NCBI GenBank assembly: GCA_003249105.1
Contig: QBLT01000007.1
Span: 1-49,195, forward strand
Length of the DNA: 49,195 nt
Direction of reading: 5' to 3'
Source: Leptolyngbya sp.
GTDB taxonomy: Bacteria; Cyanobacteriota; Cyanobacteriia; Phormidesmidales; Phormidesmidaceae
Shown: one piece after another, positions 1 through 822 of the stretch
Layout of the letters: every line of letters starts with the position of its first letter
How positions within the stretch are numbered: the first letter of the stretch is position 1
Notes under the pieces: generated by a model
Told to the model about the DNA's origin: nothing
Databases searched by the model: none
The model's input: the letters and a program-made list of their open reading frames with translations, nothing else
Program-made: the position numbers and the translations under genes

Positions 1-34
1 AATTACCCCACAGGCTGCCTAGTAAATGGATGCT

Positions 35-286
35 TTATTTCTTGGAGCACTCTAAACCAGCAATTGTTGCCAACGTCGATTTTCGCCCCCCGCCAGGTTG
101 GCGAATCCGCTCTTGGTTCAGGGCCGTTGTGTCGTTCAGTTCGGCTAGACCCAGCGCTAGGGTTTCGTGATGGCATCCCAGTAACCTTCGAATATAGGCG
201 TGCCCGCCGTACCCTAATTTCACCGCTTCGATAGCCGCATAGCGACGACGATCCTTCTCTGACAATGACTGATAGTACCGTTGCAT
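35..286 (-). pseudogene. ISAzo13-family transposase fragment
   Basis: This is an 83-codon open frame. Its N-terminal part matches the opening of ISAzo13-type transposases: a SLSEKDRRRYAAIEA segment, then LGYGG, then a helix-turn-helix-like stretch and a GGGRK turn. The frame stops about 15 codons after GGGRK, whereas full transposases of this family run to roughly 400 residues, so the DDE catalytic core is absent. The usual residues before RYYQSLSEKD are also missing. It is therefore a dead remnant truncated at both ends, and it lies about 20 bp from a MITE-like element. Family assignment rests on recalled consensus; the degenerate state is plain from the sequence. Confidence 0.72.
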
Positions 287-315
287 TTGAGCGTCAACCG
301 GGGCAGGGTAGGGGG

Positions 316-457
316 CAGGGCAAACGCATACTCCGATATTTTCGCAATAAGACCAGCTTTGGAGTGCCTTATTGCGAAAATATCGGCATCTGACAAGCTG
401 CTGAACGTTGAAACCCTTATTCCTTCGTTGTCCCTAAATGAGTATGCGTTTGCCCTG
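316..457. mobile_element. MITE-like element with 18-bp terminal inverted repeats
   Basis: The element is 142 bp. It begins with CAGGGCAAACGCATACTC (316-333) and ends with its exact reverse complement (440-457). Immediately outside each end lies the same 10-mer GGGTAGGGGG (306-315 and 458-467), as expected for a target-site duplication. It encodes no transposase, so it would be a non-autonomous element. Ends starting CAGGG with a duplication of 8-10 bp fit what I recall of the ISAs1 family, but that parent is inferred. The G-rich character of the duplication slightly weakens the argument for target duplication; the exact adjacency on both sides strengthens it. Confidence 0.75.
333..386. repeat. 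Perfect 19-bp inverted repeat inside the MITE-like element
   Basis: CCGATATTTTCGCAATAAG at 333-351 is the exact reverse complement of 368-386, with a 16-nt loop. It starts at the inner edge of the left terminal repeat (sharing base 333), so the left half of the element could fold into a long cruciform or RNA hairpin. No T-run follows either arm, so a simple terminator role is not supported. Confidence 0.8.
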
Positions 458-531
458 GGGTAGGGGGTGATTATCTATCCGCTCCTCTCGCTACCTCTCT
501 AGCTTAGGAGCCCAACCCGCAGTATTACACC

Positions 532-822
532 TTATTCAATCCACGATCCTAGGCGGCGTTCCCAGCTTATAATCGTGGCATGAGAGGCACTAAACGAACG
601 GCCTGTAGCCCGTACGCCCAAGCCCTCGCTACGCACATTAAGCGCAGCAGACACCACTCTTGCAGGGGTGCGCAACCGGGCCATCGGGGTATTAGTCCGC
701 TCGTTATATCGTTTGCCGCAATCTCGACAGAAATATCGTTGTAGAGCATTTTGCTCTTTTAAGACGGCTCTACCGTTCTTTACCGGGCGCTCACTCTGGC
801 AATAGGGACTCTGAGCCTCTGT
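532..822 (-). pseudogene. IS1-family transposase N-terminal fragment
   Basis: Reading the minus strand from about 822 down to a TAA at 532-534 gives some 96 codons that open with a zinc-ribbon motif SPYCQSE, followed by RYFCRDCGKRYNERTNTPMA and then a MARLRTPARVVSAAL helix-turn-helix segment ending in IISWERRLG. This is the hallmark N-terminal half (InsA-like zinc finger plus HTH) of IS1-type transposases common in cyanobacteria. No ATG, GTG or TTG precedes the cysteines before an in-frame stop, and the catalytic second half is missing after the WERRL motif. It is a start-less, truncated relic, in a different frame from a spurious overlapping ORF at 567-749. Confidence 0.75.

Follow-up and report, generated by a model that had tools for sequence, protein, structure and literature searches.

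The first few hundred nucleotides of the window, by which we mean the whole 49,195-nucleotide stretch of Leptolyngbya sp. DNA that was analysed, contain a short unit with inverted ends, set between two copies of a 10-mer. This raises the questions of whether the unit is a mobile element, which transposase would move it, and how its ends and its interior came together.

Structure and insertion site of the 142-bp unit

A repeat search located perfect 18-bp inverted ends, CAGGGCAAACGCATACTC and its exact reverse complement, and a 10-bp direct duplication, GGGTAGGGGG, that abuts both of them, which bears out the arrangement described in the original prediction. The features of the locus are as follows.

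58–305, minus strand: host gene that the unit interrupts, encoding the N-terminus of a transposase of the ISAzo13 family (NF033519, 62 bits; as the gene is a fragment, the score stays under the cutoff for the whole protein)
306–315: left-hand 10-mer of the target duplication, GGGTAGGGGG, which a congener's empty site has once
316–457: complete 142-bp MITE, non-coding, without match to the interior of the ISAs1-family IS
316–333, plus strand: left terminal inverted repeat, CAGGGCAAACGCATACTC; same as the ends of ISAs1-family elements
333–351, plus strand: 5' arm of an internal 19-bp hairpin, perfect inverted repeat
368–386, plus strand: 3' arm of the internal 19-bp hairpin, perfect inverted repeat
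440–457, minus strand: right terminal inverted repeat, reading CAGGGCAAACGCATACTC; same as ISAs1-family ends
458–467: right-hand 10-mer of the target duplication; again present once in the congener's empty site
468–552, minus strand: leader and first codons of the host ISAzo13-family transposase gene, together with the terminal inverted repeat of that IS; recurs at contig ends (C236, C247 and C382) and in relatives

The window was scanned for perfect inverted repeats of 12 bp or more with a direct repeat of 8–12 bp immediately adjacent to them. This arrangement occurs at one place in the 49 kb, namely at this unit, and in none of 200 dinucleotide-preserving shuffles of the window, so that a coincidental repeat was rejected. 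The 18-mer CAGGGCAAACGCATACTC was not found elsewhere in the window when three mismatches were allowed, and no open reading frame of at least 100 amino acids overlaps the unit, which encodes no transposase. The length of 142 bp falls within the 50–500 bp of the MITE class, and the non-coding unit with its terminal inverted repeats is accompanied by a 10-bp target duplication, a gapless empty site in two congeners and multiple dispersed copies, many in relatives and one in its own genome. Judged from its sequence, it is a complete non-autonomous DNA transposon (MITE).

Unremarked in the original prediction, the MITE lies inside another mobile element, of which the N-terminus of an ISAzo13-family transposase can be read on the minus strand from approximately 58–305 and 458–480. 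The congener G038 carries a copy of this target IS that measures 1302 bp between its own inverted ends, and the reading frame of that copy places the insertion point in the first codons of the transposase. The end of a further IS, which on a weak match is probably also ISAzo13-like, additionally truncates the host gene at approximately position 57. The contig begins within this IS end (window positions 1–57), which reads ...ITPQAA-stop with a weak match to an ISAzo13 C-terminus, and which recurs at many contig ends of the same genome.

The predicted unoccupied target, consisting of window positions 58–315 joined to 468–560, was compared with relatives by pairwise BLAST. The joined flanks aligned without gaps over 339 bp (81%) with G034, which has a single GGGTAGGGGG, and without gaps across the junction over 341 bp (83%) with G038, where the site reads GGGTAGGCAA; the 10-mer is unchanged over a long alignment in G034 only. 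An empty site with one target copy, for which the original prediction had proposed a search, is present in these two same-genus relatives.

Related copies and probable ISAs1-family parent elements

Among 63 genomes of the order, full-length relatives of the 142–143-bp unit with 69–90% identity were found both in congeners and in further genera of the family. A class-wide sample (388 genomes) contributed more copies, complete or nearly complete in length, from other families (G088 and G328). Approximately 25 MITE-size copies across genera have exact 10-bp duplications, all different except for one tandem pair. In an alignment of 17 copies, the ends are 96–97% conserved, compared with 75% for the interior. 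A consensus of 23 duplications gave at most 0.07 bits per position, which indicates that there is no strong target preference. In the congener G045, five copies are identical in sequence and each has a 10-bp duplication of its own, so the MITE family has moved recently. We conclude that this is a mobile element of an ordinary kind, whose family has spread through cyanobacteria. Carriage by plasmids or viruses was rejected, since no match was found in PLSDB and no exact 18-mer in viral contigs.

The tandem pair (L117:1239–1551, identical in sequence to L215) consists of two MITE copies with three copies of one duplication, CCTGGTGTCA. One of the two is among the five identical recent copies and the other is approximately 85% identical to it; the newer copy seems to have inserted exactly at the target of the older one.

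The original prediction had named three observations that would speak against it: a lack of other copies, copies without duplications, and a relative with insert-free repeats at this site. None of these was encountered, and the copies in relatives have differing duplications. Its proposal of recent or ongoing mobility holds for the family, given that a congener has identical copies at five sites. For the copy in the window it is no more than a possibility: this is the sole full copy in its own genome, and the transposase genes assembled there are fragmentary. In this assembly (412 contigs, 93% complete), the 18-mer recurs at the ends of ISAs1-like elements. The assembly holds a decayed ISAs1-like element of 1055 bp (C157) and ISAs1-like fragments at contig ends (C136, C143, C257 and C317), and no complete ISAs1 transposase, as the gene of C157 contains stops and those of C136, C143 and C317 break at contig ends.

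Complete ISAs1-family IS of 1210–1222 bp, with matching ends and perfect 10-bp duplications, are present in relatives. Both the ISAs1-type affiliation suggested in the original prediction and the transposase gene with matching 18-bp ends that it proposed to look for are thereby supported. Two identical elements of 1211 bp with an intact 382-amino-acid transposase occur in G038; these and one element each of L135 and L177 differ from the MITE ends by 0–2 mismatches, counted over both ends together. The G038 and L135 proteins (382–386 amino acids) score 431–433 bits against the NCBIfam ISAs1 transposase model NF033564, for which the cutoff is 70 bits, and also match PF13808 (DDE_Tnp_1_assoc) and PF01609 (DDE_Tnp_1). 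The duplications around the IS copies L135, L177, L211 and L218 are 10 bp long, as in the MITE copies. The unit resembles the ISAs1-family IS (H-repeat-associated transposases) in its identical 18-bp ends, starting with CAGGG, and its 10-bp duplication, whereas the NF033564 transposase is found in the IS and the MITE is only 142 bp long, non-coding and unrelated to the IS in its interior. With ISAs1-family ends and no encoded ISAs1 transposase, it is a dependent of this family and not a member IS. In another genome, G024, about eleven near-identical broken ISAs1 transposase ends lie at contig edges (C146, C186, C204 and others), which suggests a high-copy ISAs1 element that was collapsed in that assembly.

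Ends, duplication, empty site, related copies and a matching ISAs1 element are all found at the level of sequence. We consider it very probable (approximately 95%) that the unit is a MITE moved in trans by the ISAs1-family transposase of a full-length element with the same ends. Recognition by this transposase and the transfer chemistry are inferred as follows. The transposase, supplied in trans by such a full-length element, would recognise the 18-bp terminal repeats with their core CAGGGCAAACGCATACT and would cut out or copy the 142-bp unit. Insertion would take place where the two target strands are cut 10 bp apart, and repair of this stagger would yield the 10-bp duplication. At this locus, the unit landed in the first codons of the ISAzo13-family transposase gene and separated the gene from its leader.

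Internal hairpin and interiors within shared ends

The unit contains a second perfect inverted repeat, the 19-bp hairpin adjoining the left end, which was not mentioned in the original prediction. Over 19 distinct copies, pairing at the inner 13 positions of the stem is present in 94.7% of the cells, compared with 48–56% when the arms are slid by 1–3 columns. Two-sided changes in the stem number 8 cells against a mean of 4.0 in shuffles, with 2 of 500 shuffles reaching 8; the sequences compared are related. These values are suggestive of constraint on the internal stem. Folding gave a z of about -10 for the whole unit, driven largely by the ends, and of about -4 for the interior alone. The unit might, on this evidence, now be mainly a regulatory RNA or DNA hairpin used by the host, with selection on the internal stem and mobility secondary. 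We regard this as unlikely, since covarying positions are few, template-switch palindrome repair or gene conversion can also keep the arms matched, and the copies lie at unrelated sites. Moreover, no Rfam match exceeded the gathering score, the sub-threshold matches to the hairpin being microRNA-like chance matches only, and neither a promoter nor a convincing terminator was found.

The same ends, exact or near-exact, bound at least four unrelated types of interior, with total lengths of 142–143, 149–162, 161–232 and 217 bp, and single cases of 137 and 227 bp also carry them. Because the ends are shared by so many unrelated interiors, one transposase family appears to drive several MITE families. 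Elements at L133, L146, L168, L173, L196, L140, L112 and L152 carry these 18-bp ends, are flanked by 10-bp duplications and enclose interiors with no relation to the 142-bp type. These data bear on the idea that the unit is an internal-deletion derivative of an ISAs1 element, its interior accordingly being IS sequence. The perfect ends common to the unit and the IS would fit such an origin, and L132 indicates that the IS may have derivatives consisting of its ends only. However, when the 142-bp family was compared with six long elements, no interior match of at least 40 bp was detected, and several unrelated interiors occur within the same ends, which makes a deletion origin distinctly unlikely. 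The several interiors point to ends that were captured around foreign sequence, or to an interior that has diverged beyond recognition. The other short types likewise had no interior match of at least 40 bp to the long IS elements compared, with the exception of L132. The latter (L132:7012–7255) is a perfect palindrome of 244 bp, built from the final 127 bp of an ISAs1 element and centred on GGATCC, with no target duplication around it; it could represent either a newly arising MITE or an artefact of the assembly.

That a different transposase, for example of another DDE_Tnp_1 family, mobilises the unit and that its likeness to ISAs1 ends is coincidental is highly improbable: other DDE_Tnp_1 genes are present in the genome, but full ISAs1-family elements have both the exact 18-bp identity at the two ends and the same 10-bp duplication.

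Within mobilisation by ISAs1-family transposases, a speculative and rather doubtful extension is that the short end, near-constant across several cyanobacterial lineages, serves as a shared ticket for several unrelated passengers, and that the hairpin of the 142-bp passenger owes its retention to a benefit for the element or to processing in host transcripts.

Comparison with known MITEs

The element Nezha reportedly has ends of approximately 24 bp, 8-bp duplications and another parent IS, a description that sets it apart from the 142-bp unit. MITEPye1 of Paracoccus yeei is a low-copy, mostly intergenic MITE that shares its ends with an IS and folds into a long stem-loop (PMC11578231). It resembles the unit in all these respects and differs from it in its parent, which is IS1182 instead of ISAs1. 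Nezha is a cyanobacterial MITE (Zhou et al. 2008, cited in PMC10969869 and PMC3733652), and it is like our unit in being small and non-coding and in having terminal inverted repeats. In the open literature, which covers part of the field only, no ISAs1-driven MITE of this group was found.

An ISAs1-dependent MITE is a known kind of element, for which the evidence here was strong on every test that sequences allow. The record for this putative ISAs1-dependent MITE is unusually full, as it extends from the ends and the parent to the unoccupied target and to copies made recently in a congener. The recent identical copies in the congener constitute a natural, recently active system, and with shared ends around many interiors, how MITEs gain new interiors becomes testable in these genomes.
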